Positions 3,070 to 38,395 of a DNA stretch of 64,000 bases are shown here, piece by piece. Positions within the stretch are counted from its first letter, which is position 1, and each line of letters opens with the position of its first letter. The stretch lies in the NCBI RefSeq assembly GCF_014841125.1, contig NZ_JACYTQ010000002.1:310001-374000 (forward strand), written 5' to 3'. The position numbers were made by a program, and so were the translations under genes. This DNA is from Echinicola arenosa. GTDB lineage: Bacteria > Bacteroidota > Bacteroidia > Cytophagales > Cyclobacteriaceae. The notes under the pieces were generated by a model. The model had not been told where the DNA came from. It did not search any database and saw only the letters and a list, made by a program, of their open reading frames with translations.

Positions 3070-5715
3070 ATGGTGGACGTGAGAAAGCATTATTATCTTA
3101 TTATACTTCTTTTATTTAGTGTATCGGGCTGCTCTTCACAAAAAGATACGTTTACCAATAGGATGTACCACAATGTAACGGCAAAGTTCAATGCCTATTT
3201 TCTTGCCAAAGAAAAAATCGATGAAGTCGAGGACAATTTCAAACAAGCTTATCAAGAAGATTACACTCAAATACTTCCTGTATTCACTCCAATAGATAGT
3301 TCAACAGTCGACAAAAATGAAGAAAAACTTGCAGAAGCAAGAGAACTCGCAGCAAAGGCCATAGACTGGCACAGGATCAGCAACTGGGTAGATGACAGCT
3401 ATTACTTGATTGGGTTGATCGATTATTATGAAGCAAAAACGGATGATGCCATCAACACATTTAAATATCTTAATGTAAATGGAGAAAACAATGATGTGAG
3501 ACATCAAGCCCTCATCCAACTCCTTCGAATTTTTATTGACCAAAGAAAATTTGATGACGCTTCCTATGTTATAGATTTTCTCTCTAAAGAAGCTGAAATC
3601 AGCAAGGAAAATAAAAAGAACCTTTACAAGACTTTGGCCTACTACTATGAAGTAAGGCAAGAAAAAGACGGTTTGATCGCAGCCTTAGAAAAGGCACTGG
3701 AACTAAGTAAAGATAATTCAGAAAGTTCGAGGCTCTATTTCACCTTGGCCCAATTGTATCAAAGAGAAGGTTTTGACGCCCAAGCGTATTCCTACTATAG
3801 AAGTGCTATGGAAGGCAATCCTCCATACGAACTTACATTTTTCTCCCAACTCTACGCCCAGAAAGTCGCAGAATTGGAAAAAAGCAAAGATTACAGAAAG
3901 GTGCGAGAGTATTATGATGACCTTTACAAAAACCGAAAAAACCAAGACTTAAGGGACGTTGTACTGTATGAAAAAGCACTTTTTGAACTGAAACAAAACG
4001 AAATTGAGGAAGGCATAAGCTTACTCCATAAGGCGGCACAAGAAACTGGGAAAAATGATATCCAGAAAGGCTATATCTATGAAAAACTGGCTGAAATATA
4101 TTTTGACCAAAAAGAGGACTATAGATCTTCCTCCTACTACTTAGACAGCGCACTTCAATACTTCAAACCAGAAGACAAACCTTTTAACACTTTATCAGCC
4201 AAAAAAGATGTACTGGAAATATATACAGTTAATTTCGAAACAATTACTAAAAATGATAGCCTGATCAGAATCAGTCAACTTAGTCGGGAAGAACAGGAAA
4301 AAATTGCAGAGGATTATATTCAAAAAGAGGAAGAAAGGTTACTAGCGGAGGCCAAGAAGAAAACCCCAGAAAAAAACAGCAGTATATTTGACAATTTACT
4401 TGCATTTGGAGGAAATAACACTGGAGCCACCTTCTATTTTGATAATCCAATCGCTATACAACAAGGTGAAATTGAGTTTTTCAGAAATTGGGGAAATAGG
4501 CCGCTTGCTGATAATTGGCGTAGAAATGCCAGCGGCTTCCAATCAGCATCCAACTATACTGATAATATCAACAGTACTAATGATACTTCCACTATAGTTG
4601 AACCTTCTGAAACTATTACGAGCACTCTTCCTGATAAGGCAGGCTTATTAGCGGCAATTCCAAATGATCCTGTCATGATCTCTCAGCTAAATGAAGAGCT
4701 GGAAACTTCTTATTTCGAGTTAGGAAAAGTACTTTTCTTTGAACTGAATAGACCTGATCTGGCCCGAGATTATTTGGTGAAGCTGATTCAGGAATATCCT
4801 GATTCTGAAAAAAAACCAGAAGCGTATTATACATTATATTTGATTGAAAGAGAAACTAATGGAATAACGGAATTCTATGCCAATAAATTAAACAAAGAGT
4901 ATCCCGATTCTCCATTCACAAAATCGGTCAATAATCCTGTAGAAGAGTCTTCAGGGACCATTGCAAACAAAAATGCTGCAGAAAACTATAATCAAGCATA
5001 TCTCTTGTTCAAAGAAGGCAGATATGATGAATCCCGTTCCTTAATAAGAGCTACTTTGGACAACTATCCCCTAACACCTGTTACGGAGAAATTATTGATA
5101 CTCGACATTATGATCACGGGTAAGACAGGTAGTAAAGAAACTTATCAAACCAGGCTGGAGCAATACATTAGTACCACAAAAAATGATGAGCTTGTAAAAA
5201 TGGCAAGAAATATGCTATCAGTTCTGACCGGTGAAGTTAACAAAGCTCCAATCGCTAAAATAGATTCTATAGCTATAAAAGACTCTGTCCAAGTTATCAA
5301 CAAGACAGGGGTTGCCCTTAACGACAGCCTCTCGACAAAACCTGAAAGCATCTATAAGGTTGGCGAGAACCAAACACACATATTTATATTGATTATCAAC
5401 CCTGACCAAGTGTCAAAAGCAAAAAACCTGACTGCTGAAATGGAAAATTTCCATGATGCGAATTATCCAAATTCTAGATTGAGGACTGGCAGTTTATCCT
5501 TTAACAGGGAAAATTCAATCATTTTGGTAAGCCCGTTTTCCAATGCAGAAAAAGCATTGGAATACAGAAAAAGGTTCTTAACAGATTTTAAAGCTGAGGC
5601 ACTACCAGAGGAAACAAAAAAGAGTAGTTTTGTGATTTCAATACAAAACTTCCAACAACTGAACAAAAGGAAAGATATCTCCGAATACGAAGCTTTCTTC
5701 AAAGCCTCCTATTAA
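3070..5715 (+). CDS. porW: Type IX secretion/gliding lipoprotein PorW/SprE (TPR)
   Basis: An 881-residue outer-envelope lipoprotein. The signal peptide ends in the lipobox VSGC (Cys21), followed by SQKDTFTNRMYHNVTAKFNA, the characteristic start of the PorW/SprE family. Residues 90-370 and 540-700 carry TPR-like helical repeats (ALELSKDNSESSRLYF, AYYTLYLIERE), with a low-complexity central part and a conserved C-terminal domain. In known members this protein is needed for type IX secretion and gliding, linking the motor to the outer-membrane translocon. It is 7 bp upstream of the PBP1A gene, so the two are probably co-transcribed. Length fits SprE (about 870). Confidence 0.9.
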   Translation: MVDVRKHYYLIILLLFSVSGCSSQKDTFTNRMYHNVTAKFNAYFLAKEKIDEVEDNFKQAYQEDYTQILPVFTPIDSSTVDKNEEKLAEARELAAKAIDWHRISNWVDDSYYLIGLIDYYEAKTDDAINTFKYLNVNGENNDVRHQALIQLLRIFIDQRKFDDASYVIDFLSKEAEISKENKKNLYKTLAYYYEVRQEKDGLIAALEKALELSKDNSESSRLYFTLAQLYQREGFDAQAYSYYRSAMEGNPPYELTFFSQLYAQKVAELEKSKDYRKVREYYDDLYKNRKNQDLRDVVLYEKALFELKQNEIEEGISLLHKAAQETGKNDIQKGYIYEKLAEIYFDQKEDYRSSSYYLDSALQYFKPEDKPFNTLSAKKDVLEIYTVNFETITKNDSLIRISQLSREEQEKIAEDYIQKEEERLLAEAKKKTPEKNSSIFDNLLAFGGNNTGATFYFDNPIAIQQGEIEFFRNWGNRPLADNWRRNASGFQSASNYTDNINSTNDTSTIVEPSETITSTLPDKAGLLAAIPNDPVMISQLNEELETSYFELGKVLFFELNRPDLARDYLVKLIQEYPDSEKKPEAYYTLYLIERETNGITEFYANKLNKEYPDSPFTKSVNNPVEESSGTIANKNAAENYNQAYLLFKEGRYDESRSLIRATLDNYPLTPVTEKLLILDIMITGKTGSKETYQTRLEQYISTTKNDELVKMARNMLSVLTGEVNKAPIAKIDSIAIKDSVQVINKTGVALNDSLSTKPESIYKVGENQTHIFILIINPDQVSKAKNLTAEMENFHDANYPNSRLRTGSLSFNRENSIILVSPFSNAEKALEYRKRFLTDFKAEALPEETKKSSFVISIQNFQQLNKRKDISEYEAFFKASY

Positions 5716-29990: not shown

Positions 29991-32900
29991 CTATTCTTGC
30001 TTCTTGTCTTTTTTCTTAGGCCCAGCCTCTCCTAATCCCAAGGAACCTTTGAAACCAGAAAGGGAAGTTTTCCACCAATAATTGAAAATAAACTTTCTTG
30101 TATCCCTTTCGAAATAAATGTTTGACTCTACAAATCGATTGAACAGCTTTCTAGGATTGTTACCTCTCACCGCAAAAGCATTCAAAACAAAATTCAGCAT
30201 GGCCTTTCTGCCCCTTGCTTTTTCCAAAGTCCTGTCATTGAGAAGCTGCACTTTCAAGCCATTATAATAAAACTGCATTTTGCCAGTGGCCACATTCTCA
30301 TCTGCATGAATTGACCAAGTAGACGGCCTGGCCATTCCTTCCCGAATCCTTAGAAAAGCGTTTCTTTCTAAAATGGTATTGATACTTCTCAGATCAAACT
30401 CACCCACCCTCACTTCCAAATCCATTGGGTAAGGTTCCTCATAATAGAGTACCGCATTGAGGTCAATTGGAGCACTATTATTAATCAAAGCAGATGCTTT
30501 CAAATTACTCTCTTCTATTCCAAATGAATCTCCTTCCTTTTTACTTAGGTGCAAAGGGGCTATAAAAGCCTGTAATGAATCAAACTGGATCCTGCCAGGC
30601 ACCATTCCTTTTTCAGGAAATTCTTCATAAACCACCTTACCATTTTCCACTTTCAGGCAATCCAACTCCATTTTTATACCTGAGGATTTCATCAGCTTTT
30701 GGGGCATGGGTCGGTAGATATCCTCATTAAACGGAACCCTTTTATCCCTGAATACATGTATATCTGGAGACTTTACCAGCATTTGATTTGCCAAAATCTC
30801 CCTGCCATCCATCAATTCTTCAATATCAATTCCGTCAAAAACAATTTCGGGCAACTTCACCTTGACCACATCGGTCTGTGAGCCTACTTTTCTGACATAT
30901 TCATACTGTCCATACCTTGGCATTAAGGTTACATCCTTTAGCACCATCTTATCATTGGACAACATCACCAATCCTACCTTCAAAGTATTCAAACTATCTG
31001 GCAGCTTGATCTCATAGTTAGGTAACTCCACGAGAAAGTCTTTGTTGAGGAAGATATGTTTATCAAATCCCGATGCTTGGGACAAATCAAAACTCAAATC
31101 GCTTAATGCAACAGTCAAACCTACATAACTCTGCTGACGACCTGTCGAATCCTCCTTTTCTTTGATCCTGAGCTTACCTCCCTCCAATTTAAAATCATCA
31201 ATCTTAAGGCTTTTTACCACATCTTGAACAACCTGTTTATCATTCTTATTTGTGGCTGTCTCTACTCCTTTTTTGTCCAAGTACAAACTGATATCAGGTT
31301 GGTTCAATATCAATTGTTGAATATCAAAATCCCCTGTTTCTTGAAAACTCGTGAGGGATGTAGTTCTAAGGGTTACGTTTGGTATAAAAGCTTCAATAAT
31401 AGGCTTTCCTGGTTTACCTTTCAAAGTAAGAGGGGTCACCCTTAGGTTATCAAACTGAATTTCTTCGCTCTTGGTATCTAGTTCTACTTTATTAAAACTG
31501 AGGGTATGGACACTATCGTTCAAGGCCAGGTTAAAGTCATCTATTTCAATGGACATGTTATTAAAAAAGCCAACAATGTCCCCTTGACTCAGTTTTGCCG
31601 AATCCAAAAGAAAACCTAAAAAAGATAAGTTTACACCCGTGCTGATCAGGGATCTTTCTTCTCCTTCATTACTGTGAATGGCATTAAATGTCGCATTGGA
31701 GGCCTCTACAGTATCTATGCTGATGACATCAAGTGTCTTGGGTAAATTCCTGCTTCTTCTAGCCGGACGCCTTCTTCCCAAGCTATCACTTTCAGTCCCC
31801 CTGTCAATATAAAGGTTAACCTCAGCATCTGCCAGCCTAACCTTAGACATAGACAAAGTGTTTTCAAAAAGGAAACGCTCCATATCCACACCCTTGAAGC
31901 TCAAGGTGGGAATATCAGCTCCTATGGCCACCTTTACACCCAAATCTCTTCTAGGTCTTAGCTGTACATTAGAAGTAATCAACTCATCGCTGGAAGAATT
32001 ATAGCTGATTCGGTCCGCCCTCATGGTGTACTTGCCATTGGCCAAGTTAAATACATAGTTGTTCAAACTAATATCCAGTTCCTCCGCAAAAAAAGTTTCC
32101 GCCTCTCTGGGAGGGACATTCTTATCAATCAAAAACTTCTTTACCCTAATGGAAACGTCATTCTCAGCAAAGGTCTGGATCCTGTCACGAACAAAATTAT
32201 CATACCCGATCGAACCTTCTATCACATTCACCGAATCAATTCTTACATAGGAAAAATAACTCGTCGCTAAATTATATAGGTCATTGATCTCTACTTTGTC
32301 CTGACTCTCCGGCCTGGCCATGTATCGAGTCAACTTGATGTCGGGTGATGGGATTTCCACCTGGCCCACTTCCAGAATACCATCAAAATAAGCTTTGGGT
32401 ATATCTACTCCTCTGATATAAAACTCAGGTACATGCACTTCCATGACAGTACGTTTACCCAATTTCTGTAAGTTTTCTGCAATCTTATCAGGCTGCAAAG
32501 GTTCAAAACTAAACCCTTCTATTTTCAGGAATTTCTCCTTTGTATCCACAAAAATCTTATCTGCTCTAAAGAGGTGCAGGTCATCAGTTAGCTTCATCGC
32601 ATAACCATCCAATTCCAACTGTAGTGCCTCGGCTAAAAACACTCTTGAACTTGAATCTTGCTCTATGGTTTCATCAACAGCAAAGTTTTCCAAGACCAGA
32701 CTGGCCTTTCTGAACGAAACACTGTCCTTATTGATCTTGAGTCTATTATTCAGCACCATATCCCCATCAATCAGCGCCAGCCTTTCAATATAGATAGCCT
32801 TAAGATAATCCTTTGTTAGTTCTTTTATGGTCTGCCCCTCCATTCCCACATCGGACTTCTTTCGAATATTCTCAAATTGGACCGATGGGTTTCTGAGTAC

Positions 32901-34319
32901 CACCTCTTTGATATCCAAAATACTTTCGCTGTACACTTTCTTTAGGTTTGCTCTCTCCAAGCTAAATTCAGGAATGGCCACTCTAAAAAGTGTAATGTCC
33001 TCCTCTACTTCTCGAAAGGGCTCTACTTTTGCCCCCACAACCATCACGCTATCATTATAAGAAGACACATAAACTTTATCCCCAGTGATCCAGTGGACAT
33101 CATCGGCCAAAACTACCTTCACGGTAGATAGACTGAGCTCAGCATTTTCAGCATAAAAAAACTGCCCTTTCTTTTTCTCCTCATCTGGGCCAATATAGAC
33201 CTGATCCATCTCAAAATCAATCTGCCCTGCTTCAATCCTGTTCTTATATTCGTCCTCTATCCCACGTTGCAAAAATCTTCCCTCTTTAATTTCAAGGCTG
33301 TCTATGCTGATAGATGCCAAAATATCTTCTATCAAAGGATACAAATCATAACCATCAATCGTTTTTTCACCAGCTTGGGAAGAAAGCTCAGAATAGACCA
33401 AAAACTCAGGCCGTTCTAACTTCAAACCACCTACTTCAACATCTGATGTATAAAAAACCTGGTTGATATCCGCCTCGGTCAGCTCCAAGTCTTGCAGTTT
33501 CATGCTATAATAGATGTCCTGTTTTTTGCTTAAGTCAGGTGTTAAGGTCACCTGCTTTGTCCTCAAATGATTGTCCAAAGAGGACACTTCTATCTCAACT
33601 GCCTTGAGAGTATGGACACTATCAGAAAGTAACAATTCAAAATTGTCCAAGCTAAAATCAAAACCCAGTGCATTAAACGGGGTCGGTTTTGACCTTGGGT
33701 TCAGTAAAAGTACTTCCTTGAGATGAAAATTAGTTTCTTCCGCCTTAATGGATTTTTGGCTCACAAAATTCTCTATCAGCAAGTCCGCCTGATCAATAAA
33801 CAGATCCTGAATAATTATTTCGGTCAAATTGACTTTGGCCAAAGACTTTTTTATATCTTCTTGGAATTGATCAAATCTTGAGCTTTGAATGCTGTCAAGA
33901 TCAGAAAACTCCTGCTTGGTCTGCATGGAAGGCTTCACAAACCTGATACTGCCTATAGTCAAAACCTCTTTGCTGAAGCTATAGCCAATGCCTTTAACCC
34001 CAATTTCAGGAACCTGTACATTATAGATTGCCTTTTGACCTACTGAATCCTCATAAGCCTTAGTGGGCTCCAAGGTAAACCCTTTGAAATAAAAGCCTCT
34101 TTGAAAAATGGAAAGGTTAAATCTATCAAAATTAACCTCATACTTCCCTTTGGAAGCTTCATCCACTTTGTTTTGGACGTAGCTTCTTAACAATAAATCC
34201 GAACCGAAATAGAGTCCAACTTGAAGAAAAACCAAAGAGAACAATGTTATGGCAAAAAATCGGATCAGTCTCCTCTGGGATTTTCTAAGCTTCTTTTTAT
34301 TTGTATCCTTTTTTGCCAT
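29991..34319 (-). CDS. Very large AsmA-like envelope protein with about seven internal repeats
   Basis: A 1442-residue protein with a basic N-terminus and one membrane helix (about residues 20-45), then an extended periplasmic part. The start (residues 46-90) resembles AsmA/TamB-type proteins. Seven copies of a module of about 175 residues are visible. Each begins near a VPEIxxKG-like element (residues 105, 277, 449, 630, 803, 979, 1155) and contains a D-x-x-H-like strand and an RxPxxxxx element. Such proteins may form bridges that move lipid between membranes; this is inference. Start ATG 34319 is chosen; an in-frame ATG lies 6 bp upstream. Confidence 0.8.
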   Translation of the reverse strand: MAKKDTNKKKLRKSQRRLIRFFAITLFSLVFLQVGLYFGSDLLLRSYVQNKVDEASKGKYEVNFDRFNLSIFQRGFYFKGFTLEPTKAYEDSVGQKAIYNVQVPEIGVKGIGYSFSKEVLTIGSIRFVKPSMQTKQEFSDLDSIQSSRFDQFQEDIKKSLAKVNLTEIIIQDLFIDQADLLIENFVSQKSIKAEETNFHLKEVLLLNPRSKPTPFNALGFDFSLDNFELLLSDSVHTLKAVEIEVSSLDNHLRTKQVTLTPDLSKKQDIYYSMKLQDLELTEADINQVFYTSDVEVGGLKLERPEFLVYSELSSQAGEKTIDGYDLYPLIEDILASISIDSLEIKEGRFLQRGIEDEYKNRIEAGQIDFEMDQVYIGPDEEKKKGQFFYAENAELSLSTVKVVLADDVHWITGDKVYVSSYNDSVMVVGAKVEPFREVEEDITLFRVAIPEFSLERANLKKVYSESILDIKEVVLRNPSVQFENIRKKSDVGMEGQTIKELTKDYLKAIYIERLALIDGDMVLNNRLKINKDSVSFRKASLVLENFAVDETIEQDSSSRVFLAEALQLELDGYAMKLTDDLHLFRADKIFVDTKEKFLKIEGFSFEPLQPDKIAENLQKLGKRTVMEVHVPEFYIRGVDIPKAYFDGILEVGQVEIPSPDIKLTRYMARPESQDKVEINDLYNLATSYFSYVRIDSVNVIEGSIGYDNFVRDRIQTFAENDVSIRVKKFLIDKNVPPREAETFFAEELDISLNNYVFNLANGKYTMRADRISYNSSSDELITSNVQLRPRRDLGVKVAIGADIPTLSFKGVDMERFLFENTLSMSKVRLADAEVNLYIDRGTESDSLGRRRPARRSRNLPKTLDVISIDTVEASNATFNAIHSNEGEERSLISTGVNLSFLGFLLDSAKLSQGDIVGFFNNMSIEIDDFNLALNDSVHTLSFNKVELDTKSEEIQFDNLRVTPLTLKGKPGKPIIEAFIPNVTLRTTSLTSFQETGDFDIQQLILNQPDISLYLDKKGVETATNKNDKQVVQDVVKSLKIDDFKLEGGKLRIKEKEDSTGRQQSYVGLTVALSDLSFDLSQASGFDKHIFLNKDFLVELPNYEIKLPDSLNTLKVGLVMLSNDKMVLKDVTLMPRYGQYEYVRKVGSQTDVVKVKLPEIVFDGIDIEELMDGREILANQMLVKSPDIHVFRDKRVPFNEDIYRPMPQKLMKSSGIKMELDCLKVENGKVVYEEFPEKGMVPGRIQFDSLQAFIAPLHLSKKEGDSFGIEESNLKASALINNSAPIDLNAVLYYEEPYPMDLEVRVGEFDLRSINTILERNAFLRIREGMARPSTWSIHADENVATGKMQFYYNGLKVQLLNDRTLEKARGRKAMLNFVLNAFAVRGNNPRKLFNRFVESNIYFERDTRKFIFNYWWKTSLSGFKGSLGLGEAGPKKKDKKQE

Positions 34320-34570
34320 AAACAATCATATAGTAAGCAAAATAAAATTAATTAAGTTTAAAAAGAAGAGGGGAAGATAAATTTAAGCTCGTATCCGATC
34401 TTGGTCATTAGCTGTCATGGGGAATGAGGATCATGTTCCTATCAAATGACAAATTAAATCACTGAAGTCCAGAAATCAGGAACTCTCACTATGGACTCTT
34501 CTTTAAAACCCACAATCAAGTTTCAAAAGCCGTACCACTTTAATGGAGCCCTTCAATTACTTAAGGATAT

Positions 34571-34638
34571 AAAAAGCAAAAAGAGAACGTTTTTATGCTC
34601 AATGGTTTCCCATCCTCCTATGCCATAAAAACATCCTC
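34571..34638 (-). terminator. Terminator-like hairpin downstream of tRNA-like element 1
   Basis: On the minus strand a 9-bp stem (CATAAAAAC at 34624-34632 pairing with GTTTTTATG at 34589-34597), extended by one pair beyond a bulge and by a GAG/CTC pairing, is followed by TTTTTGCTTTTT. The loop is about 24 nt. It would end the element 1 transcript at about 34575. Confidence 0.5.
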
Positions 34639-34659
34639 TTTTATTTAATGTAGTGAAAA

Positions 34660-34785
34660 GCTGTAGGAGAAGGACTCGAACCTCCACGGAGAAGTTAGGC
34701 AACACAAGAGCTCTATGTGTGCTTTATCCCAGAATCTCCACCCCCGAGACAGGAGGGCTTGTCTGCCAATTTCAACATCCTACAG
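34660..34785 (-). ncRNA. tRNA-like RNA element 1, long variable region
   Basis: On the minus strand: an 8-bp acceptor stem (CTGTAGGA/TCCTACAG), a 3-bp D-stem with the loop AAATTGGCAGA that is typical of tRNA-Leu, a 5-bp anticodon stem (CCCTC/GGGGG, one U-G pair) with loop CTGTCTC, a 55-nt variable region, and a T-arm GGAGG/CCTTC with loop TTCGAGT. The anticodon position would be GTC, but position 37 is T rather than a purine. The variable region folds into an outer GGAGA/TCTCC stem and an inner ACACA/TGTGT stem. Discriminator is C and no CCA is encoded. It is about 40 nt longer than a normal tRNA-Leu. It may be a degenerate or specialised tRNA, or a non-coding RNA that borrows the tRNA fold. 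Confidence 0.75.
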
Positions 34786-34816: not shown

Positions 34817-34824
34817 CAAAGGTA
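34817..34824 (-). promoter_or_regulatory. Bacteroidota -7 promoter box for tRNA-like element 1
   Basis: Reads TACCTTTG on the minus strand, a perfect TAnnTTTG. Transcription would start near 34810, about 25 nt before the 5' end of the element. The -33 element is not clear. Confidence 0.55.
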
Positions 34825-35948: not shown

Positions 35949-35982
35949 TAAAAAAAGCTATGAAATATAATCTCATAGCTTT
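35949..35982 (-). terminator. Rho-independent terminator downstream of tRNA-like element 2
   Basis: On the minus strand a perfect 10-bp stem (35973-35982 with 35954-35963), a 9-nt loop and then a run of seven T, three of them in the stem. It lies 31 bp after the end of element 2. Confidence 0.85.
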
Positions 35983-36012
35983 AGTCAATTAACAATAAAC
36001 CCAAAATAACCT

Positions 36013-36083
36013 GTTGTAAGAAAAGGATTCGAACCTTTTTAGACTTTCGTCCCCATTCGTGAGTGGCACCACCCACCTTACAA
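36013..36083 (-). ncRNA. tRNA-like RNA element 2, lacking an anticodon arm
   Basis: On the minus strand: an acceptor stem TTGTAAGG/TCTTACAA (7 bp plus one G-U), a 6-bp stem with a 4-nt loop (TGGGTG, GTGC, CACTCA), a 4-bp stem (one G-U) closed by a GAAA tetraloop (GGAC/GTCT), and a perfect T-arm (AAAGG, TTCGAAT, CCTTT). No anticodon loop can be drawn. Acceptor plus T-stem total 13 bp and a 6/4 D-arm occurs, both features of bacterial tRNA-Sec, but the rest is missing. The last 23 nt match element 1 at 19 positions. Length 71 nt; discriminator C, no CCA encoded. Confidence 0.75.
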
Positions 36084-36123: not shown

Positions 36124-36152
36124 CAAAGATACGGCAAGAATCTTAATCACAA
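36124..36152 (-). promoter_or_regulatory. Bacteroidota promoter (-33 and -7) for tRNA-like element 2
   Basis: On the minus strand TATCTTTG (36131-36124) is a perfect -7 box, with TTG at 36152-36150, 18 bp upstream, as a good -33 element. Transcription would start near 36117, about 34 nt before element 2. It is the best-formed promoter in the window. Confidence 0.7.
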
Positions 36153-36368: not shown

Positions 36369-37412
36369 TTAATAATCATCAAGATTTACATAATTATGCC
36401 ATTTCTCTAAAACACCCATCATATCTTCTGGCAGATCAGAATCAAACTGCATAAACTCTTTGGTAAACGGATGAACAAAGCCTAATGATTTGGCATGCAA
36501 AGCCTGTCGCGGCAATAGCTTGAAACAATTCTGAATAAAGGTTTTGTATTTAGAAAACTGGGTTCCTTTTCTGATTTTATCCCCCCCATACATCTCATCA
36601 TTAAATAAAGGATGCCCCAAATACTTCATATGTGCACGTATCTGATGCGTACGACCTGTCTCCAAATTACATTGTAATAAGGAAACATAGCGCAAGCGCT
36701 CAAGCACTTTCCAATGGGTAATTGCATGCTTTCCCTGATCTCCATCCGGAAAAGTATCCATTACTTTCCTATTTTTAGCACTTCTCCCTACGTGGGCATT
36801 AATGGTACCTTCGTCTTCGGTAGGTTCTCCCCAGACCAAAGCGATATAGGTCCGCTCAATACTATGATCAAAAAACTGTCTTGCCAAATCTGTCATGGCC
36901 GCTTCTGATTTAGCTATCACCAACAACCCACTTGTATCCTTGTCAATTCGATGTACCAAGCCAGGTCTTCCAGTGTTTCCTGGCAATTCCGGTAATTGAT
37001 TAAAATGATAAACCAAGCCATTGACCAAAGTACCTGTCCAGTTCCCATAAGCGGGATGCACTACCATACCCGCAGGCTTATTGACCACCAACAAATGATC
37101 ATCTTCATAAAGTATGTCTAAATCTATCTTTTCTGCAAGCACCTCTGTTTCTGTACTTGGCGCTTCTAACATTACAGTGATCACATCGCCCGGCTTGATT
37201 TTATAGTTGGCCTTTGAAAAACCATCATTCACCCTTACATCTCCGTTTTCAATGGCTTGTTGAACCTTATTCCTAGTGGCATTGGCTACTTTATCTGTCA
37301 AAAATTTATCCAACCTCAAAGCACTCTGCCCCTTATCTACTTCAATCCTCAAGTGCTCATTAAGCCCCTCTCCTTCTTGGTCAAAAATTTCGTCGTCTAA
37401 TTCTTCAGTCAT
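36369..37412 (-). CDS. rluD: RluD-type 23S rRNA pseudouridine synthase
   Basis: A 347-residue RluA-family enzyme that isomerises uridines in large-subunit rRNA. An acidic N-terminus precedes an S4 domain (SALRLDKFLTDKVANATR, about residues 30-48; GDVRVNDG) and the catalytic domain, with Asp in HRIDKDTSGLLVIAK and NKPAGMVVHP. The ORF can be read to 37496, but the ATG at 37412 (MTEELDDE) is preferred because a -7 box lies just upstream at 37417-37424. It may act on positions equivalent to 1911, 1915 and 1917; this is inference. Confidence 0.92.
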   Translation of the reverse strand: MTEELDDEIFDQEGEGLNEHLRIEVDKGQSALRLDKFLTDKVANATRNKVQQAIENGDVRVNDGFSKANYKIKPGDVITVMLEAPSTETEVLAEKIDLDILYEDDHLLVVNKPAGMVVHPAYGNWTGTLVNGLVYHFNQLPELPGNTGRPGLVHRIDKDTSGLLVIAKSEAAMTDLARQFFDHSIERTYIALVWGEPTEDEGTINAHVGRSAKNRKVMDTFPDGDQGKHAITHWKVLERLRYVSLLQCNLETGRTHQIRAHMKYLGHPLFNDEMYGGDKIRKGTQFSKYKTFIQNCFKLLPRQALHAKSLGFVHPFTKEFMQFDSDLPEDMMGVLEKWHNYVNLDDY

Positions 37413-37416
37413 TCTG

Positions 37417-37424
37417 CAAAAATA
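37417..37424 (-). promoter_or_regulatory. Bacteroidota -7 promoter box for rluD
   Basis: Reads TATTTTTG on the minus strand and lies 4 bp before the ATG at 37412, implying an almost leaderless transcript and supporting that start. Confidence 0.5.
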
Positions 37425-37456
37425 CAGGTCTATTGTGAAAGTTTTGATAATTTTGG

Positions 37457-38395
37457 ATGAAATCAACTTTATCACCTTTGCTGGAAACGAATCCATACCC
37501 TACTCAAAAGATCTTATTTCCTGAACTTCAAAAGTTCAAGCTCCAATTTTATATCAAAAGGCTGGATTTGGTTCATCCAAAAGTCAGTGGGAACAAGTTT
37601 TTTAAACTAAAATACAATCTAGCAGAAGCCAAAGAGCAAGGTAAAGACACTTTACTTACTTTTGGGGGAGCTTATTCCAATCATATCCAAGCTACTGCAG
37701 CTGCAGCCCAATTAGAAGGCTTTAAGAGCATAGGCATTATCCGTGGAGAACCATCCATTTCTCCAAGTCCAACCATCCAATACGCCCTAGAAAGTGGAAT
37801 GGACATCCAATATATGGACCGCACTACCTATCGAAATAAAAACAGTAAAGAAGTTAGCCAAAGTTTAATGGATAGGTTCGGTAGCTTTTATATGATTCCT
37901 GAAGGAGGCACCAACTCCCTGGCTATAAAGGGCACGGCAGAAATCATTGGACCCGAAGACCTGAGCATGGACTATATTTGCAGCTGTATTGGCACGGGAG
38001 GAACCTTAGCCGGGCTTATCAAATCCTCCATGTCGCACCAAAAAACAATAGGAATTTCATCTCTAAAAGGAGATTTCGTTCATGATGAAATTAAATCCAT
38101 TTTACAGCAGCACAAAATTAAACATTCCAATAATTACGAAATTTTCACCAATTACCACTTTGGTGGATACGCCAAACACAAACCAGAATTGATCCAATTC
38201 ATTATGGATTTCAAAAAATCCTTTGGCATTCCACTTGACCCGATATATACGGGAAAATTACTTTATGCTGTTTTTGACCTGGTCAAAATGGGCTATTTCA
38301 AACCAAATTCCAATATTTTAGTCATTCATTCTGGCGGTCTGCAGGGCATAAGAGGCTTTAATGAGCATTTTGGAACATCCTTGGCAAACCATTAA
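37457..38395 (+). CDS. D-cysteine desulfhydrase / ACC deaminase family PLP enzyme
   Basis: A 312-residue fold-type II PLP enzyme. The Lys motif is HPKVSGNKFFKLKYNL (about residues 40-55), followed by LLTFGGAYSNHIQATAAAA, IPEGGTNSLAIKGTAEI and IGTGGTLAGL. Members desulfurate D-cysteine or deaminate 1-aminocyclopropane-1-carboxylate; which substrate applies is not clear from sequence. It is divergent from rluD and converges on the next minus-strand gene, overlapping its stop by 4 bp. A TAATTTTG box lies directly before the ATG, so a slightly later start is possible. Confidence 0.87.
   Translation: MKSTLSPLLETNPYPTQKILFPELQKFKLQFYIKRLDLVHPKVSGNKFFKLKYNLAEAKEQGKDTLLTFGGAYSNHIQATAAAAQLEGFKSIGIIRGEPSISPSPTIQYALESGMDIQYMDRTTYRNKNSKEVSQSLMDRFGSFYMIPEGGTNSLAIKGTAEIIGPEDLSMDYICSCIGTGGTLAGLIKSSMSHQKTIGISSLKGDFVHDEIKSILQQHKIKHSNNYEIFTNYHFGGYAKHKPELIQFIMDFKKSFGIPLDPIYTGKLLYAVFDLVKMGYFKPNSNILVIHSGGLQGIRGFNEHFGTSLANH

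Follow-up and report, generated by a model that had tools for sequence, protein, structure and literature searches.

The window, a 64,000-nt stretch of the Echinicola arenosa genome, carries a tRNA-like RNA gene on the minus strand at 34660-34784, flanked by genes at 29991-34325 and 36369-37496 whose sequences look AsmA-like and pseudouridine-synthase-like, respectively. The 125-nt RNA body extends from T1 (34784) through G73 (34661) to C74 (34660), as delineated by reading of the sequence and by a match to the covariance model R1 (140.1 bits, G000:C12:344660-344784). A first-pass annotation, made from the letters alone, had placed the feature at 34660-34785 with no strand given; the feature is present, its body reaches to 34784 and its strand is minus. 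The same annotation described a perfect 8-bp acceptor. The stem, UGUAGGA/UCCUACA, has 7 bp (U1:A72 to pair 7) and is followed by discriminator G73, and the supposed eighth pair is C-1 opposite G73. Since base -1 varies across 266 distinct relatives (C in 158, T in 77, A in 31), this extra pair is not constant.

The remaining parts of the cloverleaf agree with the initial description. The D-arm has a 3-bp stem and a D-loop of the tRNA-Leu type (AAATTGGCAGA). The anticodon stem has 5 bp and closes an odd loop, CTGTCTC (34746-34752, minus strand; C32-U33-G34-U35-C36-U37-C38), which in RNA is CUGUCUC, or GUC with U37; its assignment is based on sequence and conservation. The variable region (34686-34740, minus strand) is 55 nt long and structured as claimed, with a 4-bp outer stem, an internal loop GGATAAA / CTAAC and an inner hairpin whose length varies among relatives. 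The T-arm (34669-34685, minus strand), GGAGG-TTCGAGT-CCTTC, has 5 bp and the expected TTCGA loop; like the variable region, it was placed by sequence and alignment. The gene encodes C74 but not CCA, and the 30 listed tRNA sequences of the same genome also end in C or CCA.

Signals on both sides of the RNA had likewise been seen at first pass, and both were found on the minus strand. Upstream lies a promoter-like box, TACCTTTG (34817-34824), which we assign to the -7 type by the Bacteroidota consensus. Downstream, a long terminator-like hairpin and then T-rich sequence occupy 34570-34642, with 19-nt arms at 34579-34597 and 34624-34642; the same hairpin is present in locus L013. A terminator scan of the window in which loops of 3-8 were allowed did not include this hairpin among its matches. 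Predicted sigma-70 promoters (8 found vs. 5.4 expected) were set aside, being of the wrong type for the phylum.

A second, shortened element lies ∼1.2 kb from the full RNA. This mini tRNA-like RNA (36013-36082, minus strand), recognized from its sequence and by comparison with relatives, has an acceptor UGUAAGG and a T-arm AAAGG-TTCGAAT-CCTTT, and has no D- or anticodon arm. A -7 box, TATCTTTG, is located upstream (36124-36131, minus strand). The mini RNA directly precedes a tail beginning GGTTATTTTGGGTTTATTG, followed by a terminator; conservation and the terminator scan place the 3′ tail GGTTATTTTGGGTTTATTGTTAATTGAC and terminator at 35952-36012 (minus strand; stem 35954-35982). The same tail is found 3′ of the three other full copies in this genome, though not of the full copy in the window.

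Standard tools do not recognize the RNA. ARAGORN reported neither the window RNA nor those of its relatives, Rfam at gathering scores returned no match to the window RNA, and neither program gave a tmRNA match within the window. At a relaxed threshold Rfam produced five weak matches, which were rejected as the identity of the RNA, as all were to eukaryotic families and far under gathering scores. Comparison of folding energy with shuffled sequences was uninformative (z = -0.84; 44 of 200 shuffles fold equally well). The window RNA stands above chance because it is conserved in congeners and covaries in distant relatives. Literature searches covering CC-licensed PMC papers brought up no title or abstract that describes such an RNA, and the available text of a review of non-canonical tRNAs (PMC7609411) contains none of the strings "bacteroid", "cytophag" and "flavobacter". 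The RNA family is previously unnamed.

Conservation in sister species, the absence of which had been named at the outset as grounds for doubting the feature, was found in congeners, family and order, and the covariance search of Cytophagales relatives suggested at the same time, performed with R1, matched the RNA widely. The window genome has four full-length copies, and all 11 Echinicola genomes contain the RNA in several copies each; one congener (G001) has eleven full-length copies compared with four or five in others. In 10 of 10 congeners a copy of the window type was found, at 97.6-100% identity, together with a nearby AsmA-like gene; the alignable parts of that gene (83 to 623 nt) are 64.8-93.1% identical. 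Within the family Cyclobacteriaceae the RNA was detected in 123 of 148 genomes and 75 of 84 genera. R1 matched 282 of 291 genomes of the order at 1e-3, an upper bound because order-level matches near E 1e-8 to 1e-14 may be ordinary tRNAs. At 1e-15 it matched 60 of 345 genomes of the class, 12 of them from the window's own order, and so detects the RNA in further orders. Accepted copies scored 75-146 bits, compared with 43 bits for the highest-scoring ordinary tRNA encountered.

A scan of named genomes with a degenerate pattern yielded at least 119 stretches. All 80 that were used, taken from among the matches listed, hold a full RNA with a best copy of at least 98 bits, and they come from Cyclobacterium, Algoriphagus, Spirosoma, Dyadobacter, Pedobacter, Chitinophaga, Saprospiraceae and other Bacteroidota; the remaining titles were two Ignavibacteria MAGs and one MAG named just "bacterium". 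Two or more copies were present in 56 of 205 loci, with overlapping loci counted separately. Promoter, RNA and tail are common to the dispersed Echinicola copies, and a mobile element was considered as the source of these copies; it was set aside because no carrier gene was found, the genes beside these copies clustering with few other loci.

To describe the structure of the family, paired positions were counted in 24 diverse sequences across 31 cloverleaf pairs (723 cells). Of these cells 97.0% were paired, and 15 of the 31 pairs showed changes on both sides. None of 500 shuffles reached any of the pairing measures, all of which also exceeded slid controls. In the variable arm, all seven counted pairs had both-side changes and 87.1% of cells were paired; its 4-bp outer stem covaries in relatives, the internal loop GGATAAA / CTAAC is largely conserved, and the inner hairpin differs in both length and sequence. 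The 266 distinct RNA sequences across all gathered loci are 108-193 nt long, which would correspond to a variable region of about 38-123 nt if the rest of the RNA is constant. In members from Cyclobacteriaceae the structured arm is conserved and carries a GAGCTC loop. The feature is thus a conserved tRNA-shaped RNA family with a covarying cloverleaf, and not a product of decay.

Individual bases were compared in 160 distinct sequences, derived from 168 matches aligned to R1 by merging near-identical rows and dropping shorter matches. The acceptor and 3′ end are nearly invariant (U1:A72 in 159, G2:C71 in 160, U3:A70 in 156, G73 in 159 and C74 in 159 sequences), as are bases of the anticodon loop (G34 in 150, U35 in 159, C36 in 159 and C38 in 157), with G34 replaced in 9. 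Decoding tRNAs have U33 and a purine at position 37. Here, only 128 of the 160 sequences have U33, and 153 have a pyrimidine at position 37. Decoding bases drift, whereas particular loop bases stay fixed. In the set of 24, 12 sequences have A and 11 have T as the paired base at position 10, and some sequences elsewhere have G; pair 11-24 is U-A in 23 of the set and pair 30-40 is C-G in all 24. The RNA has the cloverleaf of a decoding tRNA, with D-loop GG and T-loop TTC, and is missed by ARAGORN and Rfam. The first-pass annotation had offered two readings, a non-decoding RNA or a decayed tRNA; the covarying stems, the drift at positions 33 and 37 and the near-invariance of the other loop and acceptor bases support the former, and the latter fails for an RNA that is conserved, multicopy and at times tandem.

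The fixed bases resemble those that specify aspartate. In the available sections of PMC9976931, five strong determinants of tRNA-Asp are given (G73, G34, U35, C36 and C38), G10 is also listed, and G1-C72 and G2-C71 are conserved. All five are characteristic of the RNA (159, 150, 159, 159 and 157 of 160 sequences, respectively), as is G2:C71, and the loop follows the form CUGUC-N-C. The RNA departs from bacterial tRNA-Asp in having U1:A72 (159 of 160) in place of G1:C72, mostly T or A at position 10 in place of G, a long structured variable arm, a pyrimidine at position 37 and an inconstant U33. Its first pair is instead that of tRNA-Asn, where, according to the accessible part of a study of Bdellovibrio (PMC4206432), U1-A72 is read by bacterial GatCAB. 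With that substrate the RNA shares U1:A72, G73 and the co-presence of GatB; it differs in carrying Asp-type anticodon bases rather than GUU and in being, very probably, non-decoding. In the window genome tRNA-Asp has G1:C72 with GUC and tRNA-Asn has U1:A72 with GUU, so the RNA joins labels that are otherwise kept apart. Because the two sets of labels are merged, the RNA is predicted to be charged by AspRS and amidated by GatCAB, and the hybrid makes this prediction a sharp one.

Lengthened acceptor domains, with stacks such as 8/4 and 9/3, mark tRNA-Sec and allo-tRNA. The RNA resembles these and other non-canonical tRNAs in its long arm and, as in tRNA-Sec, in G73, but its consensus stack is a standard 7+5 bp, with C-1 in only 158 of 266 sequences, compared with the 13-bp acceptor domain of tRNA-Sec given in the available text of PMC7609411; very probably, it also differs in not decoding. 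From tRNA-Leu, a type II tRNA with the same AAATTGGCAGA type of D-loop and a long variable arm, the RNA is distinguished by G73 in 159 of 160 sequences where A73 would be expected, by the lack of a Leu anticodon and by an arm that is longer and contains a conserved internal loop; G73 is described as an antideterminant for LeuRS in the portion of PMC9976931 that was available.

Neighboring genes were clustered for 82 loci (707 ORFs). One neighbor was widely shared, an Lrp/AsnC-family protein at 42 of 82 loci, and the next clusters covered 12 loci or fewer. In every case its gene lies upstream in divergent orientation, with 92-253 bp separating it from the nearest RNA copy; no such gene is present at the other 40 loci, to which all 24 Echinicola loci belong. 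Among the 80 listed named loci, some from species shared with the first set, 44 had the gene in divergent orientation, 28 lacked it and 8 ran into a contig edge, giving 44 of 72 testable loci, and both Ignavibacteria MAGs carry it. A non-divergent arrangement was found in none of the 82 loci and none of the 72 testable named loci. For each of four neighbor proteins the best family model was AsnC (NCBIfam PRK11179), at 169-180 bits, which does not reach the model's cut-off of 227 bits, and for the one protein searched the closest solved structure was 2cg4, E. coli AsnC. In E. coli, asnC is divergent from asnA, an AsnC-family gene facing its target. The arrangement described here is similar, except that the divergent unit, the one that would be controlled, is an RNA gene and not an asparagine synthetase gene. 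When all RNA loci were filtered for a divergent gene 60-320 bp away (88 loci, 87 distinct intergenic regions), the motif TAnnTTTG was present in 67 of the 87 distinct regions vs. 12 expected in shuffles. By eye, these regions also have AT-rich blocks in common, which might include an AsnC operator.

The window genome has an asnC orthologue elsewhere (C18:159390-159839), adjoining a gene that by eye resembles sufB. This locus (L194:1950-2260) has kept a promoter-like box, a tail-like stretch (TATATTTGGGTTTATATT) and a terminator-like hairpin, and no RNA body was found in it, suggesting that the RNA was lost at the ancestral asnC site and dispersed copies were kept. An AsnC-type gene was detected at E≤1e-30 in 5 of 22 genomes lacking a strong RNA match, with no RNA beside it in those 5. 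Twelve Cyclobacteriaceae loci (L089, L090, L093, L094, L096-L098, L100, L101 and L103-L105) each carry members of two further clusters, presumably SufB/SufD and SufC, on the far side of the AsnC-type gene. We are close to certain that the family is a conserved tRNA-like RNA, very probably non-decoding, that in many lineages is genetically tied to an AsnC-type gene.

Why bacteria that own both GlnRS and AsnRS retain GatCAB is a question raised in the available text of PMC4206432. Co-occurrence was scored in 62 genomes, comprising 43 with the RNA, hand-picked for quality from the family, order and class matches, and 19 without it, from 20 listed among 285 class genomes with no match at E≤1e-15; G166, of the same order, was left out of the latter, and a diverged RNA could escape that threshold. 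GatB was encoded by 43 of 43 RNA-positive and 13 of 19 RNA-negative genomes (Fisher p = 4e-4, kinship ignored). A joined query for GlnRS and AsnRS at E≤1e-60 identified AsnRS in 40 and both enzymes in 26 of the 43 RNA-positive genomes. With both synthetases present, GatCAB should be dispensable for translation, and yet gatB was found in all 26 such RNA-positive genomes, vs. 1 of 6 RNA-negative ones (Fisher p = 3e-5, kinship ignored); because the genomes are related, both p-values overstate the association. The one RNA-negative genome with GlnRS, AsnRS and gatB is G428, whose GatB match is low (363 bits) and lies inside a 1120-aa open frame (G428:C19:17848-19227). In genus g195, G600 has both the RNA and gatB and G431 has neither. 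The spare-GatCAB argument does not extend to the window genome, which has AsnRS and AsnB-like genes but no GlnRS match at E≤1e-60, so that its GatCAB may serve tRNA-Gln.

Asparagine synthetases show that the RNA is not generally the sole route to asparagine, since AsnB-like genes over the cut-off occur in 38 of 43 RNA-positive genomes, the window's included (19 of 19 RNA-negative), and AsnA in 4 of 43 (0 of 19). The AsnB model TIGR01536 also captures paralogues from polysaccharide loci. Absence of AsnB was tried as a correlate of the RNA and was not significant (5 of 43 vs. 0 of 19, p = 0.31). Five genomes lack both AsnA and AsnB (G066, G418, G707, G164 and G182); all are RNA-positive and have GatB, GlnRS and AsnRS.

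The reading that we favor, tentatively and at somewhat less than even odds, is that AspRS charges the RNA, GatCAB amidates it and the AsnC-type protein controls it, so that the RNA would serve to make asparagine in a tRNA-dependent way or to sense it. Following tRNA-style end processing, ordinary AspRS would aspartylate the RNA by way of its Asp-type anticodon loop (G34 U35 C36, C38) and G73. GatCAB would then turn the RNA-bound Asp into Asn, a step proposed because the RNA shares its first pair, U1:A72, with tRNA-Asn, whereas tRNA-Asp has G1:C72. Asparagine would be made or reported off the ribosome; delivery to ribosomes is not expected because U33 is not constant, purine 37 is missing and the variable arm is long and structured. 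The AsnC-type protein, perhaps sensing Asn, would set transcription of the RNA, and the RNA carrier would couple AspRS to GatCAB without mischarging of tRNA-Asn. The enzymatic core of this scheme, in which AspRS and GatCAB act on the RNA to make or sense asparagine, is a comparably tentative proposition. We are more hesitant about the fuller statement that the RNA may be a dedicated cofactor of amino-acid synthesis, with Asn made on an AspRS/GatCAB hybrid under an AsnC-type sensor and the genetic code unendangered. Charging by AspRS would be opposed by the missing G1:C72, the mostly missing G10 and the fact that G34 is not universal, and the long variable arm could clash with this class II enzyme. 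The extra bases of its type II D-loop may disfavor GatCAB.

Several features could instead serve regulation. If the charged RNA, carrying Asp or Asn, acted as a regulator with no amino acid made through it, its charged or uncharged form might titrate AspRS or GatCAB, or influence targets such as the AsnC-type protein, and so report the Asp/Asn state. The divergent AsnC-type gene, the presence of more than one copy in 56 of 205 loci, the conserved structured arm with its GAGCTC loop in Cyclobacteriaceae and the mini RNAs that retain only acceptor and T-arm are all consistent with a sensor or decoy; such a role alone leaves unexplained why GatB occurs in every tested RNA-positive genome, and we regard it as rather unlikely. 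Charged non-decoding tRNAs serve elsewhere as donors, as with cell-wall tRNA-Gly and peptide ligases, and that precedent would allow Asp- or Asn-RNA to supply a tRNA-dependent ligase for the modification of a peptide, a lipid or part of the wall. No ligase is among the shared neighbors, however (AsnC-type 42 of 82 loci, next clusters at most 12), making this improbable.

A different synthetase is also conceivable, as G73 and a long variable arm are determinants for serine too. With G2-C71 and a purine-pyrimidine pair at 4-69, they fit the bacterial Ser set in the available part of PMC9976931, where G73 also counters LeuRS. The RNA lacks C72, C11-G24 and G30-C40 of the same set (A72 in 159 of 160; 11-24 U-A in 23 of 24; 30-40 C-G in 24 of 24), and because Ser identity is independent of the anticodon in that source, charging by SerRS would leave the invariant U35, C36 and C38 unexplained; we consider it distinctly improbable. 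As for the idea that the RNA is a type II tRNA, whether ordinary or decayed, or a chance fold, the Leu-type D-loop, the misses by ARAGORN and Rfam and the unremarkable folding energy might be cited in its favor, but this was tested and is not supported by the conservation and covariation, and the 80 listed loci all score at least 98 bits against 43 bits or less for ordinary tRNAs met, so that it is barely credible.

Whatever its function, the catalogue of RNAs gains a family that is spread through a large bacterial phylum and was missed by ARAGORN and Rfam. If the proposed AspRS/GatCAB mechanism is true, it would supply a reason for the retention of GatCAB beside GlnRS and AsnRS, and an example of a tRNA freed from decoding that has a metabolic role under an amino-acid-responsive type of regulator.

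Shortened RNAs like the mini RNA of the window occur at other Cyclobacteriaceae loci (22 tail occurrences). Across the gathered loci the tail was found 98 times. A strict pattern placed 75 of these occurrences behind a full-length RNA; of the other 23, one (L060) is in fact full-length. Several minis lie on the same strand as a full copy and about 0.24-0.48 kb from it (L061, L063, L064, L069, L080 and L274). In 14 short minis, U1:A72, G2:C71 and U3:A70 are invariant and base 73 varies (A, T or G); double changes were seen in 4 of 14 predicted pairs, two of which also have 4 broken cells. Speculatively, minis may bind an acceptor-side partner without being Asp substrates. In some tandem copies the 5′ side of the D-arm/anticodon region is replaced by a palindrome, TCCCGATAGCTATCGGGA (L071:1809; L074:1811 and 1991, minus strand; L011 at about 4014-4100), and at L011, in the window genome, the shortened TCCCGATAGCTATCGGGA variant precedes a full copy.
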